IMG/VR virus record: IMGVR_UViG_3300003691_000023
Location: 1-40,309 of that record
DNA: 40,309 bases
Source: a virus
Direction: 5' to 3' (one strand)
Shown: piece after piece, positions 2,094-24,200 of the stretch
Layout: every line of letters starts with the position of its first letter
Numbering within the stretch: position 1 is the first letter of the stretch
Notes under the pieces: generated by a model
Told to the model about the DNA's origin: nothing
The model's input: the letters and a program-made list of their open reading frames with translations, nothing else
Databases searched by the model: none
Translations under genes and position numbers: made by a program

Positions 2094-3116
2094 ATGTACG
2101 GTTTTGTAAATGATAATACAATTCCTTTAACAATAGAAAATATCCTCTTGCGAGTTTCACAAGAGGATATTTTTAGTGTTATAATGGGAAAAAGACCACA
2201 GCTAAATAAAAATTATCATTCAATAATAAGAAGTGATGATAATAATCCTAATTGTAATTTTATATGGTTTGGTGATAAATTACTATTTTTAGATTTTGGT
2301 TATCATAAAACACACTTGGATTGTTTTGGTATAATATCAGAAAAAACAGGTAAATCATTAATAGAATCATTATCATTAGTTAATAGACATTTTAAATTAG
2401 GTTTAAATGGTGAGGGTGAACCTGCTAAAATAAAATTTCCCCCATTACAAAATAAAAATGTTGTAAAACCCACAACAAATATTGTATTTAAACCAAGGTC
2501 ATTTAATTCAAATGATGAAAAATATTGGTCACAATATGGTATTACAAAACAAAATTTAATTGATGAAAATGTGTATGCTATAATATGGTATAAATTTTAT
2601 TCTTTTAAATTAAAAAGGGTTGTAGTAGTTAGACCAAAGACTATTACATATGCATATTATGAATTTTTCCCAAAAGTAAAAATATATAGTCCTTATTCTC
2701 AAAAAAACAATGGTAAGTGGGTATCTAATTTAGATAGTAATCATATTGGAGGTCTTAGAACTTTACCTATCTATGGTAATAAATTAGTTATTACTAAATC
2801 ATTAAAAGATGCTATTGTTATTAAAAATTTCAAAGTTAATACAACATGGTTACAATCAGAAGGTGTAATGCCTAATACTGAAACACTTTTAAATCTATTA
2901 AATAGATTTGATGAATATATTGTATTATATGATAATGACAAAAAAGGATTAGAATCATCAATTTATTTGACAGCAGTACTTAACTCACATTACCCAAATA
3001 AAGCAAGGAATGTTATAATTCCTGTTTATCCTAATGTGACAGATAGTTCTGATTTTTATAAGGAAAAAGGAAAAATAGAATTATTGAAATTATTGGTTAT
3101 TAATAATATTATTTAA
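2094..3116 (+). CDS. DnaG-type primase with Toprim domain
   Basis: This 340-residue protein would make RNA primers for phage DNA synthesis. The N-terminal ~100 residues resemble the primase zinc-binding module (SDDNNPNC near 47-54, LFLDFGYHKTHLDCFGII near 64-81), but the usual set of zinc ligands is incomplete. A central linker is followed by a Toprim domain: the first strand motif LVITKSLKDA at 231-240 and the DxDxxG-type motif YDNDKKG at 279-285. The Toprim glutamate normally found in the first motif is replaced by the Lys-Ser of TKSLKDA. The phage may use a variant active site, or the protein may be a primase-like accessory factor. The start codon lies 3 bases after the previous gene, so the two are probably cotranslated. 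Confidence 0.8.
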   Translation: MYGFVNDNTIPLTIENILLRVSQEDIFSVIMGKRPQLNKNYHSIIRSDDNNPNCNFIWFGDKLLFLDFGYHKTHLDCFGIISEKTGKSLIESLSLVNRHFKLGLNGEGEPAKIKFPPLQNKNVVKPTTNIVFKPRSFNSNDEKYWSQYGITKQNLIDENVYAIIWYKFYSFKLKRVVVVRPKTITYAYYEFFPKVKIYSPYSQKNNGKWVSNLDSNHIGGLRTLPIYGNKLVITKSLKDAIVIKNFKVNTTWLQSEGVMPNTETLLNLLNRFDEYIVLYDNDKKGLESSIYLTAVLNSHYPNKARNVIIPVYPNVTDSSDFYKEKGKIELLKLLVINNII

Positions 3117-3135: not shown

Positions 3136-3996
3136 ATGAGTAGAATTGTAACAGTTTACACATCAAATGGTCAAAATGCAAAATCAATTAGTATTAATGC
3201 TACAGATTGGGGTACATTACAGGGTGAACTTAATGAGAATGATATTCCAACAAGTGGTTTAAAAGCTATTTTAGGTGAACAGAGAACTACTTTAGAGAGT
3301 AATGCAGCACAATTACCATTAGAAGACTTTAGTTTGTTCTTAATGCCTAAGAAAACAAAATCCGGTATTGATTATTCAACACTCTCTTTTAAAGAAAAAA
3401 GAGCTGAAATGAAAAAAATATTTGCAAAAAATGAATCTGCAAAAGAATATTTCAAAGATGGTTCTAAAAATTGGACTCAATTAAGTAGTGATAAAATTAC
3501 AGAATTACTAACTAGTTGGCATAATGGTGAAAAAACCTCAACTAAAAAAGAAGAGAAGAAAGTAGAGAAAAAACCAAAGAAGGAGTCAAAGAAGAAAATA
3601 GAACCAAAAGTAGAGAAGAAAATAGAGAAGAAAATAGAGAAGACACCAAAAAAGGAAAACACTGGCAATATTGTTAAATCTATTGTAGATTCTAAACAAG
3701 AATTTAAGTATATTGTTCTTGTCACTGATGCAGAAGTTAAATTGAACAGTAAAGAATCAGAAGACTTAAAATCAATTGATAGATTAGTTAAAGATTTAAA
3801 TTCTCAAATTGAAATAAGACTTGTTGCTGAAAAAGCTGCAGAATTAGCAAAAAAAGAAGAAGAAAAAGCAGAAGAAAAGAGAAAGATTGAAGAAAAGAAG
3901 AAAAAGGATGAAGAAAAGAAGAAATCTAATCTTTTGAAAGCAGAGGCTATGAAGATAGCTAAGGAACTTCGTAGGGAATTCAACGACATTAGCTAA
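3136..3996 (+). CDS. Ubiquitin-like (beta-grasp) domain fused to Lys/Glu-rich tail
   Basis: The first 77 of 286 residues read like a ubiquitin-like domain. There is a first strand (RIVTVYTSNG), a second strand (KSISINA), a helix region (WGTLQGELNENDI), a short helix and loop, and a last strand (EDFSLFLMPKKTKSG) ending at Gly77, close to ubiquitin's 76 residues. After Gly77 comes a spacer (78-130), a highly charged Lys/Glu repeat (about 137-175), a short folded-looking segment (about 185-225) and another charged coiled-coil-like tail. Ubiquitin-like proteins often have a C-terminal extension that a JAMM protease removes to expose the glycine, and a JAMM protease is encoded two genes downstream. 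The fold call is by eye and similarity to PRTRC-C and MoaD/ThiS-type domains is only suggestive. A terminator follows the gene. Confidence 0.75.
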   Translation: MSRIVTVYTSNGQNAKSISINATDWGTLQGELNENDIPTSGLKAILGEQRTTLESNAAQLPLEDFSLFLMPKKTKSGIDYSTLSFKEKRAEMKKIFAKNESAKEYFKDGSKNWTQLSSDKITELLTSWHNGEKTSTKKEEKKVEKKPKKESKKKIEPKVEKKIEKKIEKTPKKENTGNIVKSIVDSKQEFKYIVLVTDAEVKLNSKESEDLKSIDRLVKDLNSQIEIRLVAEKAAELAKKEEEKAEEKRKIEEKKKKDEEKKKSNLLKAEAMKIAKELRREFNDIS

Positions 3997-4018
3997 TATT
4001 TTTTTCATTTTATAACTT

Positions 4019-4054
4019 AAAAAAGGTAAATATCATTAGGTATTTACCTTTTTT
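4019..4054 (+). terminator. Intrinsic terminator after the ubiquitin-like gene
   Basis: AAAAAAGGTAAATA (4019-4032) pairs perfectly over 14 bp with TATTTACCTTTTTT (4041-4054) around the 8-base loop TCATTAGG. The 3' arm ends in a T-run, and the matching A-run on the other side lets it work in both directions. It lies between the ubiquitin-like gene and the E2-like/JAB gene, so the conjugation-like cassette is split into two transcription units or attenuated at this point. Confidence 0.85.
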
Positions 4055-4069
4055 ATTAAATAATTAATT

Positions 4070-5161
4070 ATGCACCACAATGAAATACAGTACATAAATA
4101 AACATTTTACAAATGAACAGATACTTGAATATTTAAAGATAGAATATGAACATTTAGATTTATTATATTTATATGATCAAGTTAAACAATATTGTAATTT
4201 GGTTGCCAAGTCATATCCAACCTATGAATTACAATTTACTGTTCGCAAAGATAGTATATTTAATATATCTATTGTTATAGAAATAGGTGATTTTGTAATT
4301 AGTAATACACATTTTAATGATTTACATAAAATAAAAGATATGTATATGAAATTAAATTTTAAAGTTAATAATTATATTGATAATGAGTATGTTAAAAATT
4401 CACATGTGGATTTATATAGTGATGATCAACTTATTAAAAAATTCATATTATATAACATTGAAGGTGTTAGATCCACATTAACAGAAAATGAATTATCTGT
4501 TGGTTATATACATAGTCATTTAGGATCATCTCCTAGAACACAATATGATAATACACCTTTTTATTTTTCACAATTCTGTTTAGGTTCTGGTGCTTTATAC
4601 ATGGCACAACAAATATTTAATGCTGGTTCAGTAAGTAATGAAAACTTATTTACATTAATTGTGTTACAAATAGAACCATATTTAGAATGGGAATCACTCG
4701 AAGGTGGACCACATATCAAACTTGATAGGGTAATACCAAAAGATAAATTATTTACTTTTAATATAGAGTATGATGAATTGCTTAATTATTATGATTTAAT
4801 AGACAAAACTTTAAATCCAAAAGATTTAGAATTAACAATAGGATATGATACAAAATTCATAAAAACTGATGCTTTTTTAGCATATGTTGATTCTATAATG
4901 GACAGCAAATATAGAGTATTTGTTAGTGCAGATGGGACAGAGTATGAAATGCAAAAAGTAAAAAATAATTATAAAGAAGTAGTCACACAATTAAAAAGCA
5001 ATTTTATTTTCAAAGGTGTTAGTACTAGACCATTGAAAGTACTATTAGGTGATGGAGGATGGATTACTAATAAACAATACTCTATATCAAAAGACCTAAT
5101 TGCTATCACATTAGAATATTTAAATAATAAATTAAAATTACAACTTTTAAAACATGACTGA
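4070..5161 (+). CDS. E2-like or degenerate JAB-like protein of the ubiquitin-like cassette
   Basis: The key region of this 363-residue protein is a strand ending in HSH (His148 and His150 in GYIHSHLGSSPR) followed by FSQFCLGSG with Cys170. HxH recalls JAMM proteases, but the Ser and Asp ligands at the expected spacing (S-x2-D, eight and eleven residues after the second His) are missing. A histidine-bearing strand followed about 20 residues later by CLG is instead reminiscent of E2 conjugating enzymes and bacterial E2-like (Prok-E2, PRTRC-B-type) proteins, where that cysteine carries the thioester. Gene order (ubiquitin-like, this gene, JAMM, E1) also matches bacterial E1-E2-JAB operons. I favour E2-like with Cys170 as candidate catalytic residue, but this is inference. 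The stop overlaps the next start by 8 bases, implying translational coupling. Confidence 0.8.
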   Translation: MHHNEIQYINKHFTNEQILEYLKIEYEHLDLLYLYDQVKQYCNLVAKSYPTYELQFTVRKDSIFNISIVIEIGDFVISNTHFNDLHKIKDMYMKLNFKVNNYIDNEYVKNSHVDLYSDDQLIKKFILYNIEGVRSTLTENELSVGYIHSHLGSSPRTQYDNTPFYFSQFCLGSGALYMAQQIFNAGSVSNENLFTLIVLQIEPYLEWESLEGGPHIKLDRVIPKDKLFTFNIEYDELLNYYDLIDKTLNPKDLELTIGYDTKFIKTDAFLAYVDSIMDSKYRVFVSADGTEYEMQKVKNNYKEVVTQLKSNFIFKGVSTRPLKVLLGDGGWITNKQYSISKDLIAITLEYLNNKLKLQLLKHD

Positions 5162-6263
5162 AACTAAACAAAAAGTTCGATATCCTGTAGTAATATTACA
5201 AAGAACAATAAAAATTATCATTAGTGATCAAATAATGAATGAAATTAAATACTTGACTACTCGAATTGCTAGTGTCGAATGGTCTGGTATATTATTTTAC
5301 AGTACTATGAATGATATTGATAGTGATGATTTTGTAATAACATTAGAATCTATTTATCCAATGGACAAAGGTAGTGGAGGTGCTACAGATTATGCTTTTA
5401 CAGAAGAATTTGTAGGGTATAGAATGGATAATCCTGCAACATTAAAAATGAATTTTGGACATATACATTCACATAATACAATGCCTGCTTATTTTAGTAG
5501 TGTTGATATGGATGAGATGAATTTAAATTCCGAAAATCATAACTATTATGTAAGTATTGTTGTAAATAACGCATTAGATATTGTAGGTAGAATTGGATTT
5601 GTTGGTGAAAGTACAAATAATTCCAAATATGCTTTTAAAGGAACTAATGGATCTAAACAGACAATTACATTAAGTAATATTGAAAAAAAAATATTTATTT
5701 ATAATTGTGTATTTGAATATGAAACTAATAATATTGATGAAACTTTTCAATCATTAGTTGACGGTATAATATCTAAAAATGCCAAAAAGTTAGCATTGCA
5801 AAAGGAGGCAATGAAAAACAAACCTAATATTATAGCTAATGTTCATAAATATAATAAACCAAATGTATTTACTAAACCATTACCAGAATTAGGTCTTGGA
5901 ATGCCAAAAATATTTGATGATACTAATGATGAAATATTAATATGGGAAGATACATTTCCAAATTATTGGTTACACCATGGAGATATAGATGCTGAGAGCT
6001 ATGGCCCAGAAGATTCAGTAGTTATATTACTTGATAATTTAAAAGGTTCAGATATTGAATTAACTCAATATACAAAACAATTAATTGATGGTAGCCATGG
6101 TTTATGGAAAAATTACTTTCTACCTACAGATAATGTAAGTTTTATTGATGCAATGACAACTGTATATGATTATTTTGAATTATCTACAGAACTACATCCT
6201 GAACTTGAAGTAATATTAGCTTACTTAAGAATATTAATTGAAAATTTAAAAAATAAAAAATGA
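5154..6263 (+). CDS. JAB/MPN+ (JAMM) metalloprotease, predicted isopeptidase
   Basis: A complete JAMM active site is visible in this 369-residue protein. Glu42 lies in VEWSGILFY, the position of the conserved glutamate. GHIHSH gives zinc ligands His105 and His107. Exactly seven residues later, SSVD provides Ser115 and Asp118, so H-x-H-x7-S-x2-D is intact. JAMM enzymes cleave after the C-terminal glycine of ubiquitin-like proteins, either to mature them or to remove them from targets. The C-terminal half, about residues 190-369, is not recognised and ends in a helical region. The start overlaps the previous gene by 8 bases and the stop overlaps the E1 gene by 4 (ATGA). Its natural substrate would be the ubiquitin-like domain encoded upstream. 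Confidence 0.88.
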   Translation: MTETKQKVRYPVVILQRTIKIIISDQIMNEIKYLTTRIASVEWSGILFYSTMNDIDSDDFVITLESIYPMDKGSGGATDYAFTEEFVGYRMDNPATLKMNFGHIHSHNTMPAYFSSVDMDEMNLNSENHNYYVSIVVNNALDIVGRIGFVGESTNNSKYAFKGTNGSKQTITLSNIEKKIFIYNCVFEYETNNIDETFQSLVDGIISKNAKKLALQKEAMKNKPNIIANVHKYNKPNVFTKPLPELGLGMPKIFDDTNDEILIWEDTFPNYWLHHGDIDAESYGPEDSVVILLDNLKGSDIELTQYTKQLIDGSHGLWKNYFLPTDNVSFIDAMTTVYDYFELSTELHPELEVILAYLRILIENLKNKK

Positions 6264-6934
6264 GTAAAGAAAGATTTAAAGACGCTTTATGGTGTACACC
6301 ACAACAAGTATTAGTTGGTGGTCAAGGTGGTATAGGTAGTTGGCTAACATTATTTTTGTCAAGAATAGGTTATGAATTAATTATTTACGATGATGATTCA
6401 TTTGAAGAACATAATATGTCAGGTCAATTCATTACAAATGAGTACATAGGTATTAAAAAAGTAACAGCTGTGTCAAAATTAGTACATAGTTTTGGAGCAT
6501 CAAACAAAATACACTCTTTTGATGAAAGAATAAATATTAATACTCCATCAGCATTATTTGTAATGGGTGGATTTGATAATATGACTGCAAGAAAGCATCA
6601 ATTTGATGCATGGTTTGAACATAATAAAAATGAACAAAATGAAGATGCTATATTAATTGATGGTAGGTTATCAATGGAGCAATTTCAGATATTTTGTGTT
6701 ACACCAAAAACTACAAAAGAATATAGAGAAAAATACCTATTCAATGATGACGAAGTTGAAGAAACAGTATGTTCGTTAAAACAAACAAGTCATACAGCAG
6801 CTATGATTGCTGGATTCATGACAGGTTTTCTCACAAATCATATAACAAATATGATAGAACAAAATAAGGCAAGAACAGTACCTTTTAAAACTGAATACTT
6901 TTTACCTTTAAATATGTTTAGTAATGTTTCATAA
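6260..6934 (+). CDS. E1-like/ThiF-family adenylating enzyme
   Basis: This 224-residue protein is a compact Rossmann-fold E1. It has the ATP-binding loop GGQGGIGS (20-27), acidic residues after the second strand (YDDDSF, 43-48), Asn52, and the DNxxxR motif at 106-111. A candidate catalytic or metal-ligand cysteine is Cys171 in TVCSLKQTSHTAAMIAG. In most family members an arginine near Asn52 (NxxRQ) contacts ATP; here the segment reads NMSGQF, so that arginine is missing. E1 enzymes adenylate the C-terminal glycine of a ubiquitin-like or sulfur-carrier protein. No thiamine, molybdopterin or sulfur-transfer gene is nearby, so a protein-conjugation role with the neighbouring ubiquitin-like and JAMM proteins is more likely. 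The gene overlaps both neighbours. Confidence 0.88.
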   Translation: MSKERFKDALWCTPQQVLVGGQGGIGSWLTLFLSRIGYELIIYDDDSFEEHNMSGQFITNEYIGIKKVTAVSKLVHSFGASNKIHSFDERININTPSALFVMGGFDNMTARKHQFDAWFEHNKNEQNEDAILIDGRLSMEQFQIFCVTPKTTKEYREKYLFNDDEVEETVCSLKQTSHTAAMIAGFMTGFLTNHITNMIEQNKARTVPFKTEYFLPLNMFSNVS

Positions 6935-8156
6935 TGAATCATACACCACAAAGAATCTTGTTGGTTTGTCACTTCCTTTTATATCATCATTAAATGCTAA
7001 TACATATGTCCCTTATTATTCTTTGTATAATAAATATAGAGTTACAACAAACGAAGATGATGGTATAATGAATTATTATTATGTTTTTGGAAAACATAAT
7101 AATAATAATATAAAAACTAGAGAAATAGCTAACATATTAACAGGTAATACAAGTCAATCAAATTATGTAAATAATGTTTATTATGTTAAGAAAAAGATTA
7201 ACTATTTTATAACATTTGGTTTTGTTGCTACTATTAACAATGGAAAACTCAAAATATTAGCTGGTATGTTTATGAAAACATCTGATATTATTGGCAAACC
7301 ACTTATGGATATTGAACATGATAATAGAGAGTTCTTAATAGATGTTGATTTATTAACAAATAGTTTGTATTCAGAGATGTATCTATATTTCAAAAAATAT
7401 ATATTGAATGATATTACAGTTAATATGTCTATTAAACAAGAATTAACAAAATTTTGTTTTTCTGAAGCATCTGTTAATTCTATAAGTATAGGATTCAATC
7501 AATTAAACAGTTATACTGATAGATTAAAAAGTTATGTTTCAAAGCATGATAATTATGTATCATTACCACATAGTTTTACTACTGAATTACTTGATGAAGA
7601 AGAATTTATATCATTACCACATAGTTTTACTACTGAATTACTTGATGGTATTGATACTAGTGTTTTACAAACTGGTAGTGTGTTAATAACTGGTACAGGT
7701 GGTAATATGGATAATCTTGTTGAATTTGAAAATATATTTGCAGATAGAAATAGATATAGTAGATCATTTATAAATCCTCTTGAGTTTATAGCTAGTATTG
7801 ATTTTTACAAAGCTAACATTTCTACAAATGATGTATTAGTTACTAATATTGAATCTGTAAGAAATTTAACACCACCAACTGCAGAAGAGTTTAATAATGC
7901 TGAAGAACAAGTACAAGATGTTAATTTGTGGGATAATCCACCAATTGATGCTATTTTAGAAAATGATGGGAATCATATTTTTGAAGAAGTAGATGTAATT
8001 ACTGAAGTATTAACAGATTCAAATGAAGATGATGACATACAAGTTGTTGATATAATTGAAGATGCACCTTTAACTGTGTCACCAACACCTAGTTCTGACG
8101 ACAGAATAGAGTATGGATTCATAGATGATGAATCACGAATATTAAACTATGACTGA
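6924..8156 (+). CDS. Unknown acidic protein, last gene of the E1-JAMM cassette
   Basis: This 410-residue protein is not recognised. Its N-terminal ~210 residues look folded, with many Tyr and Asn residues and alternating strand-like segments (NYFITFGFVATI, KLKILAGMF). Near residues 212-241 the stretch SLPHSFTTELLD occurs twice, caused by a 51-bp tandem duplication. From about residue 320 the protein is acidic and probably disordered (DSNEDDDIQVVDIIEDA). The gene overlaps the E1 gene by 11 bases and the next nuclease gene by 8, so it is coupled to the cassette. It could be an adaptor, target or regulator of the conjugation system, or an additional E2-type partner; no catalytic motif is visible to choose among these. 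Confidence 0.82.
   Translation: MFHNESYTTKNLVGLSLPFISSLNANTYVPYYSLYNKYRVTTNEDDGIMNYYYVFGKHNNNNIKTREIANILTGNTSQSNYVNNVYYVKKKINYFITFGFVATINNGKLKILAGMFMKTSDIIGKPLMDIEHDNREFLIDVDLLTNSLYSEMYLYFKKYILNDITVNMSIKQELTKFCFSEASVNSISIGFNQLNSYTDRLKSYVSKHDNYVSLPHSFTTELLDEEEFISLPHSFTTELLDGIDTSVLQTGSVLITGTGGNMDNLVEFENIFADRNRYSRSFINPLEFIASIDFYKANISTNDVLVTNIESVRNLTPPTAEEFNNAEEQVQDVNLWDNPPIDAILENDGNHIFEEVDVITEVLTDSNEDDDIQVVDIIEDAPLTVSPTPSSDDRIEYGFIDDESRILNYD
7558..7647 (+). repeat. Exact 39-bp direct repeat, period 51 bp, inside the 410-residue protein gene
   Basis: Bases 7558-7596 are repeated without mismatch at 7609-7647. The 12-bp spacer keeps the frame, so the protein gains the peptide SLPHSFTTELLD twice within 17-residue steps. 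Zero divergence suggests a recent duplication or active copy-number change. Only two copies exist, so it is not a CRISPR. Confidence 0.9.
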
Positions 8157-10604: not shown

Positions 10605-13600
10605 TTATTTTTTCATTGACTTTGGTTTTTTTGGTCTACTAAAAGAAGATTTTACCAATTTTGTAGCTTCTTTTTTTGATTTACCTTTGTTCATTAACAT
10701 ACTTGTCATTCGTGCAATATTTGATTTATAAGTACTTAATGATCTTGTATATTCTTCCTCATCATTTGGTAATGTATTTTTTGAAACCCAATAATCAGAA
10801 TAATCTCTTCTTGATTGAGCAGGTTGACCAAGTATTGGTCTATTTATTATTGGTATAACATTATCTAATCCTAATGTTTCAATAATAGGTCTTTTGTAAT
10901 CAGGATTATTGTCAAATACACCAAAGAATTTACCAATACTAGGCATTAATAATTTTGTACCAGACTTTCGCATTCTACTTCTACCATAATTATCACCACT
11001 TTTATATACTTGATCTTCACCAAATATAACTTTAGTTGTTTCACTTAAGAATTCACCTGTATTTTTCAAAGTTCTTAATAATGCACCATGTAAAAAGAAA
11101 TCTATAATAGCCATTGGATTTACAGGCATCATTATATCATTTAAAAACCTACTATGTAAATTTATAAGTGTTGTTTTTACTGCTTTTTTCTTATTACATT
11201 CTTGTTCAGAATCATAACTTCTACAATCAAGTAGTTTTGCTGTAGCAATTGATGATAAAATTGTAGTCATTGCAATAGCAATTTCATACATAATAGCTTG
11301 TATATCTTTTGCTTCTCTTTCCTGATCTACAGTTGATTTACCTTCTTTATCATGTAATCCAAAATATTTTTTTGTATCTAACTCAACAACTTCTTTACCA
11401 ATTATTGCTCTTGTTGGTATGTTTATCAATGTCCTAGCTAATAATTGTAATGTACCATATGCTTCTTTTAGTATAGAAACATTTTTAGTCATTGTACCAG
11501 TAGCAAATTTAGTTCCTATTGTTGCCAAACCAGCAACACCAATACCAATACCAACTGGTCCACCAAACAATATACCAAGCATTGTTGTTGCTAATGCTAT
11601 TATTGATGAATTTGCTGCACCATAAACTGATTTCTTTCTAACAACACCAGTTGATAATTTACCACCTTTATCAAATCTTGATCCTATATATTCAGGTAAA
11701 AATGTTGCAAAAATCATTAAGTATGGTAATAATCCTTTACCTGCATCACCATCTTTTATTGCCATACCAAGTGTGTCAGAATAGTTACCATTCACAGCAA
11801 CATTAGCTGATTTAGCTGATATTGTAAATGCTGTCTGTTGTTTTCCAATTCCTGTTTCCCAATTAGCAATATTTTCATCAGTTCTGTATTCTTTTTTTAA
11901 TACTAATGTGCCACCTTTGCTTTTTTTACCATCTAAACCTTTTTCACCAAATTTGATACCTTTTAAATCTACATTATCATATATTAAAAACTTTTTTCCA
12001 TCAAATACTTGTGTTTTTATTTGTTCACCTGCAGCATTTAATCCATCAATTTCAAAGTCTTGTAATACATTCAGTATTGTCTGACCTTGGTTTTTCCATT
12101 CCACAGCAGTAATAGACATATAGAATGGATTCATTCTTTTTGTATAATCTTCTTTACCAAGTTTCCTACTAGCTTTTTGAGCTTCATCTCTCATATCCTG
12201 ATGAAGATTGGCATTATTGAAAAATAATACTGCCTTTTCCATTTCAATATCACCTTCACCAATGTATATTTTACCTAAAGAATCTTTTATCCATTTTATT
12301 TGCTTCCTTCTCATGAATTGTTCACTCTTAATATTATTCCCAGAGGTCCAATATTCACCAAGTCTATCATGATAAGAATTACCAAATAAAGCATGTAATC
12401 TATTGAATATACCAGATAATTTATTAAAAGCCATTGAATTAAATATTATAAATTGTCTAAAGTAATTCAATATAAATAGTGCATTTGTTGGTTCTTTTAA
12501 TTTAGTAATAGCAGCTTGTAATTCAGCTTCACCATTTTTTGCAATAAGTAATGCATCTTCTAATTCTTTTATTTTTCTTTTTTGATCAGGAGTACTAGTT
12601 AAAAAATGTTCATTTGTAAGTAATATTTTACTTTGTCCACGTTGATCTTTTACTGCTCTTTTGATCCATTTTTCAGTTTTTAATATTGCATTTTTCCTTG
12701 TATTACCATTAGCATCTTTTACTTCTGCATACAATTTTTGCATTTGGTTAATCATTGGTATAGCTTCATTCTTAGCATCAATATTTGCTGCATGAGTCAG
12801 ATATTGTTTTATAGCTTTTGCTAAATCAAGAGATTGATGTTCCATTAATTCTCTTGATACTTGTTTCCTAACCAATACTTTTATAACATTTAGTGTTACT
12901 TGTGAACCCATATTATGTTTAGTGAATAAATCATACTGTGTATCATCTAACATAGCACGTAATTTATTCATGAGTGTTTGATTTACATCTAGTAATGATT
13001 TATATTTATCATTCCTATGTGTAATAGCAAATTTAATACCTGATTCAAATATTAACATTCTATGTCTAGTTTCAACATCAATAGATGCTTGCATAGATTT
13101 AACTTTTGATGTATTTACTTGGTTTTCATCTTTGCTTACTAAATCCAAAGGATTTACTTGTTTATTTTTTCTCCATTTTGTTATAACATGTTTAGCAAGA
13201 TCACTATACATTTCAGTACCCATAAATCCTTCCATACTGATATGTTCTGTAAATGTCTTACCCATATCCATTAGGGAATTGGAGACAACACTCTTTCCAC
13301 CAGTGGACACTAAAACACTATTAATGTATCTCAAACTCTCATTCATTGCTTTCCAGAGTTCATACATATCAGGATTACTTTCTATACTTTTAAAATTATT
13401 ATCTAAAAATTGATTGTTTTCTGGTTTTGGATATAATTTAGTATATTTACCACTAACTGAAGTACTTCTTGTGTCAGTAGTTATTAAACCACTTTTAGAT
13501 GAGTGTAAAATTAAAGGATTATGTGACTCTCTTGCTTTAGCTAACATAATTTTTAACTGTAAATCAGGTTTATTAGATTTAATCTGACCTTCATTTAACA

Positions 13601-15248
13601 TGAACAATAACTTATTTTCATAATCACTAATAAACTCTAAGTAATCAATATAGAGTCTTTTTTGTGATTCAATCATATCATTGAATTCTAATTCTCCTAA
13701 ATCATTAATTAAAGTATTTCTATATTCATCATCTAAATTAAATTCAGATTGATTATTACCATTATTAACTTCTAAATCAAATTGCTGTAAATCTGATAAC
13801 TTGTTTATATTTAAGAAATTACCATTTTTTGTAGCATCATTATAATATCTTTGATGAGCAAGATTATAATTATTACCACCAGTTCTGTTGATTTCTGATA
13901 TATCATTTTGTAAATTAGTTTCTAAATCATCAGTTAATGTATTCCATTCATTTGTAAATTTACCAACTAAATAAGGTAATAGTTTACCATCAGAATCTTT
14001 TTGATAAAAAGAATCGTAGTCTTTCAATTTTAACTTTAATAATAAGTTATCAATTCTACTGTGTAATTTTTTTATGTTTTGTTCTTTTGTTTTTAGTTTA
14101 TCTTCAAATTCTTCAACCATTAGTTGGGCAATCCAGTTGTTTGAATATTCAGAATCAAATAATGAACCAAAATTCTTTGTTGGATCTCTGAACCATGCTG
14201 AAAAAATACTAATATCAACTTCTCCTGTTTCAAATAATCCTTGTAATGTAATTTTTGAACCTAATCCTTCTGTAACTTTATCATAGTTCCTATGAGTAAC
14301 TAATTTATTATATGTAATACTTTTTGTTTTTTTATGAAAATCATCTGTTATTATTTTTGCTCTATCACTAACAGATTTTAATTCTGATTTCATTAACTCA
14401 TATCTAGCTTTTTTTGTTTTTTCAGTATCATTATTTTCTGGTAAATTATTATAAATAGTATTATCTTTAAATAATGGATGATCTATTAATTCTTCAAAAT
14501 TTCCTAAACTACTATACCATTCAAGTAATTCTTTACCTTCAGTATACATTTGAGGATTATCATTAACCATTAATGATTTTATTCTTGTTAAATCATTTAA
14601 TGCTATTCTGGATATGTTTTTTATTGTGTTTTGAAAATTGGATTGATCTCTTAACATTGCTAAATCTTCTTCATAACTTTCCATGGTTTTTGAAACCCTT
14701 CTTAGCTCTTTAGAGACATTATTATATGTTTCAGTATCATTTGCATTATCAGCTACTATTTTTTGTTCAGCTAATGAATACTTTCTTATTTTTAAATATT
14801 TTATTTGAGCTTTTTTAAAGACTGTGAAATTAGAGAATTGTTCTTTCTTAGAACCGGGTATAGTTGCTGCTTTAATATTAATATCTAAACCTTTAATACT
14901 ATAATCCACATCATTGCCAATACCAACAGTATTTTTACCATTAGCAATTAAATAATTATTTGTTATTTCATTAATCAAATTGTTATTAAACATTGAATTA
15001 AATTCAACAATTGTTGGTTCATTAATAAAGTCTTTCGTATAGAGTAAAGCTTTAGCAATTAAAGCTTTATCTCTTGTTGAATGTTCTAATAATTGTTCAT
15101 ATAACAAACTATGATTCCCTTCTTTATTAAAATCTAAGGAATATCCATTATTTGATGCAATTATAGAACCTGCTGCTGGTTGATTGTTTAATAACTTACT
15201 TAAATCATTAAAGTCTTTTTCTGCTTGTTTATTTTTTATACAACTCAT
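10605..15248 (-). CDS. Large virion protein with hydrophobic segments, putative ejected cargo
   Basis: This 1547-residue protein is the last gene of the minus-strand virion block. The first ~1100 residues are polar and largely helical, with coiled-coil-like stretches. Hydrophobic segments occur near residues 1180-1250 (LMIFATFLPEYIG, and a Gly-rich run with GILFGGPVGIGIGVAG) and near 1316-1340 (IAIAMTTILSSIATA). The C-terminus is very basic (KSSFSRPKKPKSMKK). Long, helical, partly hydrophobic proteins encoded next to the virion RNA polymerase are packaged and injected in podophages, and may form a channel in the host envelope. This role is inferred from position and composition; no enzymatic motif was seen. 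Its ATG overlaps the TGA of the giant gene (ATGA). Confidence 0.9.
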   Translation of the reverse strand: MSCIKNKQAEKDFNDLSKLLNNQPAAGSIIASNNGYSLDFNKEGNHSLLYEQLLEHSTRDKALIAKALLYTKDFINEPTIVEFNSMFNNNLINEITNNYLIANGKNTVGIGNDVDYSIKGLDINIKAATIPGSKKEQFSNFTVFKKAQIKYLKIRKYSLAEQKIVADNANDTETYNNVSKELRRVSKTMESYEEDLAMLRDQSNFQNTIKNISRIALNDLTRIKSLMVNDNPQMYTEGKELLEWYSSLGNFEELIDHPLFKDNTIYNNLPENNDTEKTKKARYELMKSELKSVSDRAKIITDDFHKKTKSITYNKLVTHRNYDKVTEGLGSKITLQGLFETGEVDISIFSAWFRDPTKNFGSLFDSEYSNNWIAQLMVEEFEDKLKTKEQNIKKLHSRIDNLLLKLKLKDYDSFYQKDSDGKLLPYLVGKFTNEWNTLTDDLETNLQNDISEINRTGGNNYNLAHQRYYNDATKNGNFLNINKLSDLQQFDLEVNNGNNQSEFNLDDEYRNTLINDLGELEFNDMIESQKRLYIDYLEFISDYENKLLFMLNEGQIKSNKPDLQLKIMLAKARESHNPLILHSSKSGLITTDTRSTSVSGKYTKLYPKPENNQFLDNNFKSIESNPDMYELWKAMNESLRYINSVLVSTGGKSVVSNSLMDMGKTFTEHISMEGFMGTEMYSDLAKHVITKWRKNKQVNPLDLVSKDENQVNTSKVKSMQASIDVETRHRMLIFESGIKFAITHRNDKYKSLLDVNQTLMNKLRAMLDDTQYDLFTKHNMGSQVTLNVIKVLVRKQVSRELMEHQSLDLAKAIKQYLTHAANIDAKNEAIPMINQMQKLYAEVKDANGNTRKNAILKTEKWIKRAVKDQRGQSKILLTNEHFLTSTPDQKRKIKELEDALLIAKNGEAELQAAITKLKEPTNALFILNYFRQFIIFNSMAFNKLSGIFNRLHALFGNSYHDRLGEYWTSGNNIKSEQFMRRKQIKWIKDSLGKIYIGEGDIEMEKAVLFFNNANLHQDMRDEAQKASRKLGKEDYTKRMNPFYMSITAVEWKNQGQTILNVLQDFEIDGLNAAGEQIKTQVFDGKKFLIYDNVDLKGIKFGEKGLDGKKSKGGTLVLKKEYRTDENIANWETGIGKQQTAFTISAKSANVAVNGNYSDTLGMAIKDGDAGKGLLPYLMIFATFLPEYIGSRFDKGGKLSTGVVRKKSVYGAANSSIIALATTMLGILFGGPVGIGIGVAGLATIGTKFATGTMTKNVSILKEAYGTLQLLARTLINIPTRAIIGKEVVELDTKKYFGLHDKEGKSTVDQEREAKDIQAIMYEIAIAMTTILSSIATAKLLDCRSYDSEQECNKKKAVKTTLINLHSRFLNDIMMPVNPMAIIDFFLHGALLRTLKNTGEFLSETTKVIFGEDQVYKSGDNYGRSRMRKSGTKLLMPSIGKFFGVFDNNPDYKRPIIETLGLDNVIPIINRPILGQPAQSRRDYSDYWVSKNTLPNDEEEYTRSLSTYKSNIARMTSMLMNKGKSKKEATKLVKSSFSRPKKPKSMKK

Positions 15249-18200
15249 TTTTTGCTACAGTTTAAATCTTTTAAATTTACAGTTCCAAAACTACTATTTA
15301 TTATTGATATAGCATTTTCTATATTACCAATAAATTCATCATCTGTTAAGTTTGCTTCCTTTTTTATAGGCATTACATGTTTTGTATCAATATTAAATAT
15401 ACCATTTATGTAGACATCAGCATCAAAAGTAGGGTCATTAGGGTCCAATTCTACTGATTCTTTGTTAATACCTTCTATGATATTAATAATTGAATCACTA
15501 GTAATATCATGTAATGTTTCATTATTGGACCTTGATTTAATCATGTCAAGAATAAAAGTAACAAATCTATCAAATAATGATAAATCAAGTACAGTGATAT
15601 CTTTCATATCATTTATTAGATCTTGTTCAGTCATTACAGAAGTAACAAATTCTTTATAGTTATAAAACATATAAGCTTGTTGTTCTTTGTCTGTGAATTC
15701 AATACTAATACCATTTCTTTTATCTACTATTTTTTTATTTAAAGAATCATATATTTCTTTTGTAAGACTATATTTGGAATCAATTTCTGCTTTTGTAATA
15801 GTGTATAAATTAGCTAGTTGTTGTAAATCTTTTGGTACATCTTTTTTATCAACTAATAATTTATTATCATGTGAAAAATATTTATTTATATAATCACTTG
15901 TTAAGAAATGTAAATATTCATGTAAAAAAGTCTGTGCTTGTTGTTCTTTACTAGAATTCTCAATAATTCTAGTATTTATTGTAATCTCATTATTATCAGA
16001 AGAATATGCACCTAAACCATAAATAGGTTTTTTACTTATGATTGGTGTTATTTCAGTAGGTATATTTAATAATACACCTGCTAATTTACCATAATCACTA
16101 TCTAAATCAGATATATGTGATAAAACAACTAATGGTTGACCAGAATCATAATTAAAATAGTCATATTCTTTAGTATTCAAACTATTACTATCATTGAAAT
16201 CTCTTTTACTTATTGGTGCAACTTTTGCTTCATTATTAACAATACTATTTACATTTTTAACATTTATATTATACTCACTCATACCATGAATTCCAGCAAT
16301 AGGTAATTTAAAATATTTTTCACTACCTAATATATATGGTTGTATAACACCTTTATTTCTTATACCAATCATTTTAGGATAAGTACCATCATCAGAAGCA
16401 AAAGGTTCTTTACTAACAGATGATGCATTAACATTTACATTAAATTCTCTTGCTGCAAAAGCTTTCAATTTATTACTATTGTGTTGGAAAAATTGTATTA
16501 AAAATCCAGCATTATCTTCTTCATAGTTCATTAATTCATTAAATAGTACATCATCATGTACATCTATACTATTCATGAATTCATTATAACCAATTCTTTC
16601 TAAAAAAGACATTGGTATATATTTTGTAAAATCAATAGCACCAGATTGTTCACCAGATAAAAATGAGTAAGATATTAAATCTTGTGCTAACATTAATGTT
16701 GTATACACTGGTGTATATTTAAATACATGTTTTTTATGTCCTTGTTCAACAAAACTTTTTGTTGTCATATCAAGATCTTCATCTGATAAACCATTATCCA
16801 TTAAAAAATCAGATGGATAATTATTTATAGACATTTCACCAATATATTCAACAATAACTCTTTCACCATTATTTAAAGTTGTAAAACCTTTTTCTCCAAT
16901 AGACATTTCATTATTTGAATTACTTACTGAAATTGTTTTTAAACCATTTGAAATCATTGTGTTTACTATGGTTGTTAGTTCTGGAATTTTTATTTTTTTA
17001 CCAGCAACTTTTATGTTTTTGTTATCTGGTAATGGTGTGTTTTCAGATAATAATGTAGCAAATGCATGGTACATAACTTCTTCATCAAAAGCATGTTCTG
17101 TGGTATTATCAAATATTAATTTTGATATTTTATTATCATCATCATTCAATACTTTTAATTTTGATAGTAAAGGATTTGAATGTAATAATTCATTATTATC
17201 ACTTTTAAGTTTTAAAATATAAGCACCCAATGATGGACTAATTTTTGAATTCTTAAACAGTCTTACTCTTTCAGTTTCAGGATCACCATGTATAGTTCCT
17301 AAATTTTGAATAGTATTCATGTATTTTTTTAATTCTTTTATAACAAGCTGTTTTAAATCAGCCATTTCATTAGAATTTGATTCAGATATGTTAGATAATT
17401 CTTGTATTTTATGTGTTATATTTATTATTGCTTTATTCTCATATGGAAATAATGGATTCCATAATTTATAACCACTAACTATTGAATTAACAATTAAATG
17501 ACCCATCATAGTTTTTGGTTTAATCATTACATCTTCCAATTCAACATAACCATTATCTAAGTCTTTTTGTTTATCAATATTGTTTGTTGGTAATTCTTTG
17601 AAATCACCAATTAAATCAGTTATGTTATCACTAAAAGCTTGTAATGTATTAAATTCAATTAATTGATTTTTTAAGTTTATTGTGTTTACAAATTCTTTAC
17701 CTAAACCATCTTTTGTAATACTCATTAAGTTTTGTACTTTATTTATATCTCTTCCGGAATTTTCCAATTCTATAAATAGGTCTAATACAGCTAATTGATC
17801 ACTATTATTAGTTTCTTTTTTAATATTATCATAAAGTACTTGTGGTGTTAAATCAGAATTAGGTGATTTATTATTAGATTCAAATTGTGTTTTTAAATTA
17901 TCTATTAATTCAGTATTTGATGTATAATTTTTTATAATAGATGATTTTCTAGCTGCTTTAGCTTTAACATAAGCTTTCACAATTGGTTGTGATATTAATA
18001 AGTAAGATAAAGACATACCTTCTTTTACCAATTCACCATCAATATTAAAAATACTTTCTGCTTTATCAAATCCTAGTAATGTAAGTAAACTGTCAACATT
18101 AATTGTTTCTGACGTTACACCAACTCTACCCATAATTTGTTCTTTTTCATTGTCAGTAGCAGTATTTTGTTTTTCAGCAAATGCTTCAGAAATAGGTCTA

Positions 18201-21200
18201 ATAAATGATAATATTGATCTATCATTTGTATTGATCAATATTTCTGTTATATCGTCATAATGTATTAATCCATTTTTCAGTTTTTGTTCAAAATTGGAAT
18301 CTTCACCTTGATAGTAACTTAATATTGTATCAATATCTTCATTACTTATTATATTAGTATATCTACCTAATCTACCATCTGATTTATAACTACCAATTTC
18401 AATGTTTAGTCTGGATATAGTACCATCTGATACACTTTTTAAATATACCTTATCTTCTTGTTGTTGTAATAATGAATTCAATACTACATAATTAGAATAT
18501 ACTCCAATACCCATTTGACCAACAGCACCTAAATTCATTTTGTTTCTTTGGTATGAATCAGACAATATAGTTGTAAAACCAGCTTCAGAATCTTGTAACA
18601 ATTTGGCTTGTGCACCAGCAAAATCCATGGATAAAACTTTGTTTATCTTTCTTTGTATTATAGGATTATTGCTACTAATAATTGCACTATTGATTCTTAC
18701 AAGTTTGTTCTGTAAGTTCTTCTTTTTGAAATCCTTAATTAATTTGATTTCAAATTGTTTATTCTTAATATCTTGTGCTGTTATTGTTAATTTTTTATCT
18801 ATAACAGTTGGTGTTTCACTTTTTTTAATTACATCATTAATAATATCATTTGATACTTCATCTGTATTTTCAATTTCTTGTAATATTTTTAAAAATTGAA
18901 CTTCATTATTAAAAGTTAATCTATAACTCTGTAATTCTTTCTTTGTTGTGATTAATAAATCATTTAAATTTTCATTATTAAATAAGTTTTCCAATGATAC
19001 AATTTTACCATCTGCAGTGGTAGCATGCAATAGATGATATGAAAATTCCTTATCTACATCATAATCTAATCCTTTTTGTGGGCTAAATTCAGATGGTACA
19101 ATCATTAAATCACCATTTTCAGGAGGTAAAAAACCAGCAATTTCAACTTGTGATGCAGAAACATGTGATGATGTTGGAATTCTAAATGATGTAATATCCA
19201 TTAGATCTTCACCAACCATATCTTGTTTTAATTGCCACCTACCATTAATTTTACTAACATATTTTCTATCATCACCTTCACCTTGAAATAGATTTATTAA
19301 TGATCCATCAATAGCTCTAAATCTTGAAGGTATAAATATCTGAGCTTTATTATTATCAGTTTTAGCTTTTAAACTTTTACCATCAAATTTATCAGTATAT
19401 ATAATCCTTGATTGTTCTTTCTTATTTAATAGGTTTACATCATCTGTTATTTGATAACCTTCTCTTGAACCAGCTACATAAGAGTAACCCGGAAGTTTTA
19501 ATTTTACTAATTTTTTTGTAATTAATGAATTTAATAAACCTTCGTATCTAATAGCATTTGTTGATAACCAAATTGAATTTCTCAATCTTAATGTTCCATC
19601 TGAATTTCTAATTATTTCAACACCATCGATATCTTGTTTTGGATAGTTTCTTGATGTTGCTTCTTTTTTGAGCATTGTTGATAATTTAACTAAGAAATCT
19701 TCTTCATTTACAACATTACCATCAGAATCTAAACCTAACTCAGTAAACAGCTCTTGTTTTGTTATATCTATTAAATCCTTATATGTATTATCATATTCAT
19801 TTAATAAGTCTCTACCACTAATTGTGGAGTCCATAAAATTAATATCTTGAATATCTGTTACACCATCACCAAATAATAATTTCATAAGTTGTGTACCAAT
19901 CAGAACTTCATCTTTTGTTGTTTCTAAAGCATGTACAGGTACATCCTGCTGAATTCTAAAATTCTTTCTGTCAACAATAGCTGATGATTCTAATAATGTA
20001 TCATTATCTAATTTTCCAGAAAATGGTTCAATACCAGTTTTTGTTGCACCAACCTTAGAACCAGTTTTATAAGTAGCTCTAACATTCATGTTCTGTTTTT
20101 TCTGTAGATTATACATAGCAGCTCTAAGAGGTTCTAATTTTGTCCCTGCTGTAGCTTGGGGGAGCAATGGGTAAGAGGATGTTTTTACATATATCATTCT
20201 CATTTTACCAGTAGTAGGATCAAAAGTACTTCCAGTATGTACAGGTTTTAATGGTTGAAATATGATTTTTAAATCATCATAATTAATTTCATTTTCTTCT
20301 GTTATACCATTTTCTTCTTGATCTTGTATCTTCTCAGAATAGTAAATATATTGTTCTTCTGTTATTTTACCATCAGCATTTAAAAGTATATCCAAATGTT
20401 CTTGTGCAGTTGTATATTCTTGTGCATCAGTTGTTTCAATAGAGAAAAATGAATTTATGATTGGGAATAACCCTGAAGCTTTTTTCAAATTACCATTCAA
20501 AGCTTTTAAATCAGTCAATCCTTTATCACCATAATGCAATTTCACTAAATATTCAATGTTTGTAGCTTCTGATTCAACATCATTTAAAAATAATTGTAAA
20601 TATTGTTTATCAGTAATACCATTTACTTTATCACCCGGAGCTAATAAAAGAGCTAACCTTTTACCTAAATTTGTACTAATGTTTTTTACAACTTCTGTGT
20701 AAGTACCTTTTTCAGAAGGTAAATGTGGTTTTGGATCAAGTAATGAGTTAATAGCTTGTGCTTCATCTGCAGTTAATCTATTAGAAGATTCTAATTCTTT
20801 TACTTTACTTTTTGCATCATTAAAAGATGATATGTTTTTAAATTCAGGACCTAATATTGTTGTATCAACACCAAAATCACCAAACATTTTATCATTTGAA
20901 TAAAATGCAATATCACCAGCAATCAATTGAAACATATTTGATAATGATATCATATTGTTAATAATAAAATCTGCAGATGAAAATTTTAATATATCAGTAC
21001 TTGGTACAGGATTGTATTCATCTTTTGTTTTTAAGCTTTTATATTCAGAATCAATGATTTGTTCTGTATCTGATTTCAATTTAATCTCATTACTTATTAC
21101 ATTAGTTATAATATCATATGCTTTACTAGCTATTTGAGTTTTAAGCCATATTTGATTAATACCTTCACCATTCATAATACTATCATGAATGATTTTCAAT

Positions 21201-24200
21201 ATGTTATTACCATCAACTTCTATTTCATTGATTTGTGGTAATAATAAAAACATTTGTGCAGCTTTATCATAACCTTTTACGTTTTCTTCAATACCTGCTT
21301 TTTTATTTTCATGATATTTTATAATTCTGTTTAATTCAGGTTGTACTAATTGTTCAAATAATACTTCCAATGTTTCAAAATTCAATTCTAATTTTCCACC
21401 ATTAAATTTAATATGTTTACCTGAGAAATTGAATACAGGCATTGTTAAAGCTAACATTTGTTTCTTATCTGACATAGTTGGAAAAAACATAGATGCAATT
21501 CTAAGAGGTATGTTTTTATAACTAACAGATGAACCTTGTCTTGAATATTGAAAGAATCCTTTTTGTGTAGTTTCTTGATCAATATCAATCATTTTACTTA
21601 ATGCATTATTAGGATTTGATTTTTCACCTCTTGGTTTAAGAGCTTCTAAATCAACATGCGTTGTATGTAATGACTCAGATACTAATTCTGTAGTATCATC
21701 ACCCATTAACAAGTTTAATAACATACTGTCTTTAGAATATGGATCTGATTTTAGTTGCTCCAATAATTTGAAATCAGATGTCAAATCTTCTACTCTATCT
21801 GTAGCAAATTTAGATGGTATATATCCATTTATATTTTTATCACCACTTCTAAAAGCAATTGTCAATACTCTTGTGTTATACATACCTTCTATCTTGGCTA
21901 AATTATTCAAAGTTGAATTAATTGATATAAATGGGTGATTTGATTGTGATTCATCAAAAATATTAACTTTTGAAATATCTGGGTTATTGATATATTCATC
22001 TAACATTACAGCTAAACCACCAAATAACCCTTTTGATTTCTTATTAGAATTAAACATGTTGATGTATCTAAGTACTGTACCAGTATTATCTCTTAGTCTG
22101 TTATCTTGTACTTGTTTAAGTGTTTCTTTACCTATTGATATACCAAACTCTTTTAACCAGTTGATTAATACATCATGATCTGTGTCAACTGTAAAATTTT
22201 TAAACTCATCATATAATTTATTAGCATGAGCAACATTTATTGATCCATTATCATTAACTAATGTTTTTATCTTCAAAGTTTCTTTCCACTCATCATTCAA
22301 TATTCTTGATACTTCACCAGAATTAGTGTTTCTTAATTGTATATTGTATTTTTTTGTTTTATTATCATAATTAAAACTTACAAATTTCATAGACATATTA
22401 TGTTTGTTCATATGTTTCATGAATTTTATCTGTAAAGTTCTATCAGCATTTTGTAATTTAAACATTACATCATGAATGAATGGATATACATCTTCATATT
22501 TAACCATTTCATTTATCATATCATCATATGTCATATCAGATTTTGGAATACTACCAATTATATGAGATATAATATTCATTGTTTTATCAAATGGCATATA
22601 TAATGGTAATCCTAAGAAACCTCTAGGTACTGTACCATCTATATTTTTTTGATGAATACCAGCAAAAAACTTTTTTAATTCTGTAGGTACAGAGTCTTTA
22701 CCTTCATATTCAACTGATTCTTTTTCATGAATTTTAGTGCTTGATTCAACATCTTTTTCTTGTTGATCTATAGCACTTAATTGATCTTTGTTTGTATCAA
22801 TATTTAGATATTTTTTAAACAACTCTTTAGTGAATGTTTCTACAACACCCCATTCATTTTCAATAGAATCAAATATTTTTAATCTAGTTTCAAATTCTTC
22901 TATTATTTTATTATACTTATTATTATTGAAACCCTTTAATTTTGTGATAAAAGACTCATACTCAGTCTTTTTCACTTTTAATAATTTATCAAAAGCTGTT
23001 TTTAAATTATCATCAACAAATTTCTTGTTTATTTTTTCAGTACCAGATTCATTTATAATATTATTTAATACTGCAAGAACAATAGTATGTAGTTGCTGTG
23101 GGTTTACACCTTGGATTTTTTCTGTATCATTTATAATCTTTTGTATGTCTTCTTGTGATAAATTACCAATTGATTCATCAATAGATGATATATTACTAAA
23201 TAATACATCAGTATTTTTAGAACCTAGTTCAACTAATGCTTTCTTAATATCTTTTAATAACTCAGAACTTGCTTCAGTTACTTTTTCTACTTGCTCTGTT
23301 GTTATACTTTCTTGTACTGGTTCAGGTTTTGTTACTTCTTTTGTAATTGGTGATTGAACAAGTGCTTTTGTCTCGATAGAAGTATCTAATTCTATTATTG
23401 GATTTGTACCAGTAGCATAAAATGGCTCTTGACCTTCTTCTACTACTTTATGACCTTTAATATTAGTTTTAACACTATTTATTGTATATTTATCATATGT
23501 AGTTTCATCATCAATATTACCAAATTCATCAAATGTTAATATTTTTTGTTTACTGGCATATCCTTTTGTACTATGATTTCTTCTTAATTTTGTATAATTA
23601 GTTTCAAGAATACTTAATAACTTATTCATTTGTTGAATGTTACCATTATTCATTTTAACACCTTCTTTTGGTAATACAAATCTTGCTATATCTGATCCAA
23701 TTACTTCACCATCAGAATCTCTTTTCTTAGCTACTACAATAAACATGTTACCTCTTGTGGCAAATCTTATGTCACTTGGTCCATTTATTGTTTCATTTTT
23801 AAACTTCTCTACATCAATGTTACCATTATTATCTAATGATTTACCGGGAGTATTCATTATAAAATTACCTATGTAATCTGATAATGTTTTTACATTATTG
23901 ATACCTGTTGTAGAAAGGATCTTCTGCACAATGGATGGATTATCTATCATAGAACCTTTGTTCATACCATATTTACCATCTATAAATGCCTTTATAGCTC
24001 CTATAACATTATTTTTATCAGTGCTGGTTGCTAAACCCATATCTACAGGAAAAGCTTTGTAAATGTCAACTTTTTTAATGACACCTTTATATTCTTTTAA
24101 TTTAGTACCTATTTTTCTTACTTCATATGTTACACCAAGTTTCCTAGCTGTTTGCTCACCTTTGTTATTTTTTAATATATCATTTTCATTTACTATTTCT

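Follow-up and report, generated by a model that had tools for sequence, protein, structure and literature searches.

A divergent, probably E2-like protein encoded with ubiquitin-like, JAMM and E1 genes in crAss-like and related phages

Is the 363-residue protein encoded at 4070..5161 of a viral DNA stretch an E2-like enzyme, or an inactive relative of the JAMM protease encoded next to it? The stretch, here called the window, is the IMG/VR virus record IMGVR_UViG_3300003691_000023 (40,309 bases). Its proteins and gene order match Steigviridae crAss-like phages (crAss001, DAC17, cr85_1 and others) and also Flavobacterium psychrophilum phages of Fipvunavirus. An earlier note, made from the sequence alone, had proposed that this protein either belongs to a divergent E2 family or is an inactive JAB that partners the neighbouring protease. 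The features that bear on the question are the following.

2094-3116, plus strand: primase gene
3136..3996, plus strand: ubiquitin-like protein (Ubl) with an N-terminal beta-grasp domain (residues 1-77) and a long C-terminal tail, from an AF2 model, PDB matches and relatives
3361..3366, plus strand: codons Ser76-Gly77 (KSG) of the Ubl, the probable mature C-terminus and JAMM cleavage site
4070..5161, plus strand: putative E2-like (UBC-fold) focus protein, 363 aa, ATG start, from the ORF, conservation, AF2 model and structural matches
4511..4519, plus strand: codons H148-S149-H150 of the E2-like gene, at the position of the HPN-like region of E2 proteins
4577..4579, plus strand: codon of Cys170 of the E2-like gene, the candidate thioester cysteine (81/81 in the alignment)
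5154..6263, plus strand: JAMM/MPN+ metalloprotease with the complete motif E42, H105-x-H107, S115-x2-D118
6260..6934, plus strand: E1/ThiF-family activating enzyme (PF00899) with GxGGxGS, D44, D46, K67, D106 and Cys171
6924..8156, plus strand: uncharacterised gene after the E1 gene (410 aa, ORF)

The focus gene lies between the Ubl and JAMM genes, with the E1 gene after them, which is the placement of E2 genes in bacterial Ubl operons that the earlier note had recognised. The gene that follows the E1 gene is shorter in relatives, and its product in the window contains no RING-type Cys/His pattern. Resolvase-like and exonuclease-like genes are found downstream of it. Elsewhere in the window a single ORF of 4377 aa on the minus strand (15245-28378) adjoins one of 1547 aa (10605-15248), and the two recall the giant proteins of crAss-like phages that contain RNA polymerase.

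The focus protein contains His148-Ser-His150 and, further on, F169-C170-L171-G172-S173-G174 (FCLGSG), as had been read from the sequence. The second half of the JAMM motif was said to be missing, and this is so: the pattern H-x-H-x7-S-x2-D needs Ser158 and Asp161, and the residues found are Gln158 and Asn161. The cysteine was also said to follow the HxH at E2-like spacing; it does follow, but the spacing is loose, with 11 to 42 residues (mode 16) between the second histidine and the cysteine among relatives. No HPN sequence is present.

The family alignment comprises 82 relatives, encoded by crAss-like and Flavobacterium phages, with a median pairwise identity of 22%. Cys170 is invariant (81/81), as are His150 and Ser149 (80/80 each), Tyr146 (79/79), Glu208 (82/82) and Gly212 (81/81), whereas the median column conservation is 35%. 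This near-invariance in so divergent a family argues that the HSH/Cys motif is not due to chance. A further conserved motif is E208-S-x2-G-x-P. His148 is kept in 76 of 79 sequences and is replaced by Phe in three (loci L024, L025 and L077), a change that a metal-binding HxH should not tolerate. Judged on sequence, the pattern of conservation fits a catalytic cysteine and not a JAMM metal site. At locus L027 the first E2-like ORF is followed in tandem by another (3949-5043), which has the conserved C-x-G-S-G-P motif (VCMGSGPL); the phage seems to carry a pair of E2 paralogues.

An AlphaFold2 model of the focus protein was built from 66 sequences and has a pLDDT of 72, the conserved core being mostly at 80-94. 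The model begins with a helix (29-48), followed by a meander of four strands (52-58, 64-78, 85-100 and 124-134), the loop that carries the HSH and the cysteine, and two helices (175-185 and 191-206). This predicted order of elements is the UBC (E2) topology, with Cys170 placed five residues ahead of helix 175-185. The C-terminal part, about residues 215-363, is weakly modelled.

The model was compared with known structures using VIA-align, and E2 or UEV proteins occupy each of the first 31 rows for the 1000 best chains, ahead of the first unrelated protein. The best match is the TSG101 UEV (Z 7.5, rmsd 3.5 over 128 residues), and UBE2S (6.2), UBE2K (5.9) and Cap2 (5.8) are also matched, at Z values under 8 that the tool warns can reflect a common arrangement of elements; we therefore put weight on how consistent the list is, taken with the cysteine and the operon. 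The TSG101 UEV is a catalytically dead E2. In a Foldseek search of the PDB, CBASS Cap2 is at rank 1 (E 0.16) in a top group of Cap2, TSG101 UEV, UBE2S and UBE2W, none with an E-value below 0.1. The matches in BFVD are mainly homologous phage proteins of unknown function.

Sequence searches did not link the family to known E2 proteins. Thirteen members had no match in a Pfam scan to PF14457, PF14460, PF14461 or PF14462 at E up to 1, nor to the JAB family PF14464, and none in NCBIfam; divergent is thus an apt term for the focus family. No PADLOC model matches the focus protein, a profile search of the PDB gave no link to a known E2, and hhalign against a CBASS E2 alignment gave a probability of 0.1%. 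In one hhalign comparison with CBASS-type E2 sequences the sole aligned stretch pairs FCLG with PCLE around CBASS C109. Weak matches to BART (PF11527, E 0.01) and MKT1_N were rejected as chance, being below the cut-off or found in few members. Twelve of the 13 members match phrog_15310, which is the phage family of the focus protein itself; it is listed as of unknown function, and a function is proposed for it here.

The protein encoded at 5154..6263 is the true JAMM that the earlier note had placed next door, the complete E-HxH-x7-S-x2-D set (E42, H105, H107, S115 and D118) being present in 72/72 rows that cover it. In seven other rows an interruption of the gene accounts for the absence of the upstream half. 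A Pfam scan gave a hint of PF14464 for the window's protein, and the family profile has its best PDB matches in CSN5 and JAMM1. Group I introns (RF00028) occur near the HSH codons of interrupted JAMM genes (L038 4749-5051, L058 4133-4345, L067 3546-3805) and at the HSH codons of one interrupted E2-like gene (L035 2207-2438). The JAMM gene is likewise split in L032, L039, L040 and L091, and probably also in L074 and L093. The introns seem to home to active-site codons of the Ubl-E2-JAMM-E1 operon.

The E1 matches the ThiF family (PF00899, E=1.4e-16), and its Cys171 is conserved in 83/83 relatives within a C-[ST]-x-K-Q-T motif. The nearest PADLOC models are the E1 regions of CBASS E1-E2 proteins, and there is also a weak match to BilD.

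Residues 1-77 of the Ubl are predicted to form a beta-grasp domain, and the PDB matches of the model are ubiquitin-like proteins. Ubiquitin (1ubq) residues 1-76 align to residues 3-77 of the model (Z 8.4, rmsd 2.9 over 70), and Gly77 thereby falls at the place of ubiquitin Gly76. Among relatives Gly77 is invariant (78/78) and Ser76 nearly so (76/78). Most relatives continue for 53-217 residues beyond the glycine. In L027 and L032 the Ubl ORF stops three residues past it, and in the uncultured phage cr106_1 (L007 2147-3347) an HNH endonuclease gene is inserted directly behind the KSG site, leaving a Ubl that ends two residues past the glycine and a tail encoded by a gene of its own. These ORFs, ending two or three residues after Gly77 in three distinct relatives, support Gly77 as the working C-terminus of the Ubl; we infer that the JAMM protease cleaves the longer precursors after it. 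A match to the C-terminal domain of ribosomal protein L7/L12 (PF00542, E 5.1e-12) was obtained for one Ubl precursor and is probably in the long tail of the uncultured phage cr126_1 (L011 2745-3668); if so, the tails of these Ubl proteins may be modules that can be swapped. The phage Ubl has no match among the PADLOC models.

The distribution of the operon was studied in 92 loci, comprising 12 further operons from public phage records and 80 viral loci found by an E1 profile scan; single-sequence scans of viral contigs gave no match. By profile search of each locus all four genes are present in 85 of the 92, and all 85 complete loci have the order Ubl-E2-JAMM-E1 on one strand (77 distinct E1 sequences). 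The loci were chosen by their E1, so the 85/85 shows that the three other genes accompany that E1 and not that the pathway is in every related phage. In six of the seven incomplete loci the stored sequence ends before the missing genes would be reached. The seventh, L023, is the sole locus with Ubl, JAMM and E1 but no E2 match, and an E2 of greater divergence, or some other gene, may lie in its 1.2-kb gap between Ubl and JAMM (3618-4856).

Members of the E1 family were detected in phages and on three contigs (3.7-12.3 kb) of metagenome-assembled bacterial genomes, which are probably misbinned phage. Plasmids gave no E1 match even at E 1, and no cellular copy of the pathway was found in the collections searched. 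The annotated flanking genes are replication and nucleotide genes. The phage crAss001 transcribes its replication, recombination and nucleotide genes as middle genes, from 10-30 minutes after infection (PMC10136315). The Ubl-E2-JAMM-E1 module is placed among such genes, so it is likely to be expressed at that stage.

The UBC-type predicted fold, the invariant cysteine, the complete set of partners and the universal operon order lead us to regard the focus protein as very probably the E2 of a phage-encoded ubiquitin-like conjugation pathway, a reading built on sequence comparison and a structural model. Of the two identities first suggested, the divergent E2 family is thus the one favoured, albeit with no Pfam E2 match. 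With an E2-like gene in an operon with a Ubl, an E1 and a protease, this virus lineage appears to carry its own complete protein-tagging pathway. The adjacent JAMM protease would cut the Ubl precursor (3136-3996) after Gly77, and may also strip the Ubl from its targets. The E1 (6260-6934) would adenylate Gly77 and then carry the Ubl in thioester linkage, probably at Cys171, from where it would pass to Cys170 of the E2-like protein and then be attached to a lysine of a phage or host protein. No E3 candidate is visible, and the C-terminal region of the E2, from about residue 215 to 363, may therefore choose the target. We consider it reasonably likely, with less assurance than the E2 assignment, that crAss-like and related phages have in their replication block a complete, self-sufficient Ubl pathway, consisting of a precursor Ubl, a JAMM, an E1 and a previously unrecognised E2 family, which modifies phage or host proteins during infection and for which the collections searched contain no close relative from cells. 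To assign it to replication, to the remodelling of host proteins or to counter-defence would in each case be speculation.

The focus protein could instead be a catalytically dead JAB/MPN partner of the adjacent JAMM, as Rpn8 is with Rpn11. The two genes are adjacent and a similar x-I/M-H-S-H motif is found in both proteins, but hhalign between the two families gives a probability of 0.8%, with an alignment of 14 columns around the shared HSH tripeptide only. The first histidine is dispensable, and a cysteine invariant in 81 diverse sequences is not expected of an inactive partner. In its predicted fold the model resembles UBC/UEV proteins, and the VIA-align matches listed include no MPN chain, although absence from the list does not exclude the fold. 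The earlier note had named a clear MPN fold and a non-conserved Cys170 as evidence against an E2; what is seen is a UBC-type model and a cysteine that does not vary. We regard the JAB proposal as highly improbable. It is less improbable, though unlikely, that the protein has an E2 fold in which Cys170 and the histidines form a zinc site or serve other thiol chemistry, making it a binding scaffold similar to UEV. The best structural match is indeed a non-catalytic E2, and a metal site made with H150 and C170, both invariant, is geometrically possible. However, the loss of His148 in three relatives and an H150-C170 spacing that varies from 11 to 42 are unlike a rigid metal site, the invariance of Cys170 speaks against a dead protein, and the operon contains no other conserved E2 candidate.

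Another explanation concerns the module as a whole, which might be a sulfur-carrier pathway of the ThiS/MoaD type and not a protein conjugation pathway. In public records the E1 is mostly annotated as 'thiamine biosynthesis protein' (one record has 'ThiF family protein' and one 'E1 enzyme family protein'), a ThiF-family E1 with a beta-grasp partner is common to both kinds of pathway, and the Ubl terminus is a single Gly. Yet among the flanking genes with an annotation none was recognisable as a further thiamine or molybdopterin gene, and a JAMM protease and an E2-fold protein are present in every complete locus. We therefore think a sulfur carrier very unlikely and prefer a conjugation pathway with the focus protein as its E2.

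Public records list the E2 as a hypothetical protein, and describe the protease as a metalloprotease-domain protein at most. The open-access literature, to which our search was confined, yielded no account of this pathway in crAss-like phages, so earlier notice in subscription papers or preprints is possible. The main texts of a crAss-like genome survey (PMC7886860) and of a Crassvirales review (PMC10136315) mention neither ubiquitin nor ThiF. If the assignment is true, a bacterial virus has its own ubiquitin-like tagging, which raises the question of what gets tagged, and a divergent E2 family is added to the evolutionary record of ubiquitin systems. The carriers include crAss001 and other culturable isolates, so the pathway is directly testable. 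In crAss001 the Ubl, E2-like, JAMM and E1 proteins are gp79, gp78, gp77 and gp76, respectively.

The phage E1 and JAMM have weak matches to PRTRC_ThiF and PRTRC_A, respectively, of the PRTRC system, which we take to be the bacterial operon type 6d. Bacterial operons with Ubl, E1, E2 and JAB genes have been described since 2006, and type 6d has stand-alone Ubl, JAB, E1 and E2-like genes (Iyer et al. 2006, PMC1779556), the same kinds as are present here. By its description the 6d E2 is set apart from the phage E2, having no upstream His and a conserved His after the Cys (PMC1779556), whereas the phage protein has the HSH upstream. No helical-protein gene of the 6d type was identified at the phage locus.

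The characterised BilABCD system also has four genes, for a Ubl, an E2, a JAMM DUB and an E1 (summarised in PMC11354881), and these four kinds of gene are common to both. BilA has two Ubl domains, whereas the phage Ubl has one with a long tail. The PADLOC Bil models match the phage E1 only, weakly (BilD), and the Ubl and E2 are without a match.

CBASS Cap2/Cap3 likewise combines an E2 fold, a ThiF-type E1 and a JAMM. In this characterised system Cap2 conjugates the C-terminal Gly of cGAS and Cap3 removes the conjugate (PMC10097602). Cap2 has a His about 20 residues ahead of its conserved Cys (H90...C109 in the alignment); it is the first Foldseek match of the phage E2, and the E1 models of CBASS are those nearest to the phage E1. 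The phage E2 and the CBASS E2 have no detectable sequence similarity, and no CD-NTase was noted among the annotated neighbours. Cap2 is an E2-E1 fusion, whereas the phage E2 and E1 are separate genes in 85/85 complete loci, and where CBASS uses cGAS the phage has a dedicated beta-grasp Ubl. CBASS is a host defence operon, whereas the phage genes are part of a replication block. Both CBASS Cap2/Cap3 and Bil protect cells from phages, whereas the pathway described here is carried by the phages themselves.
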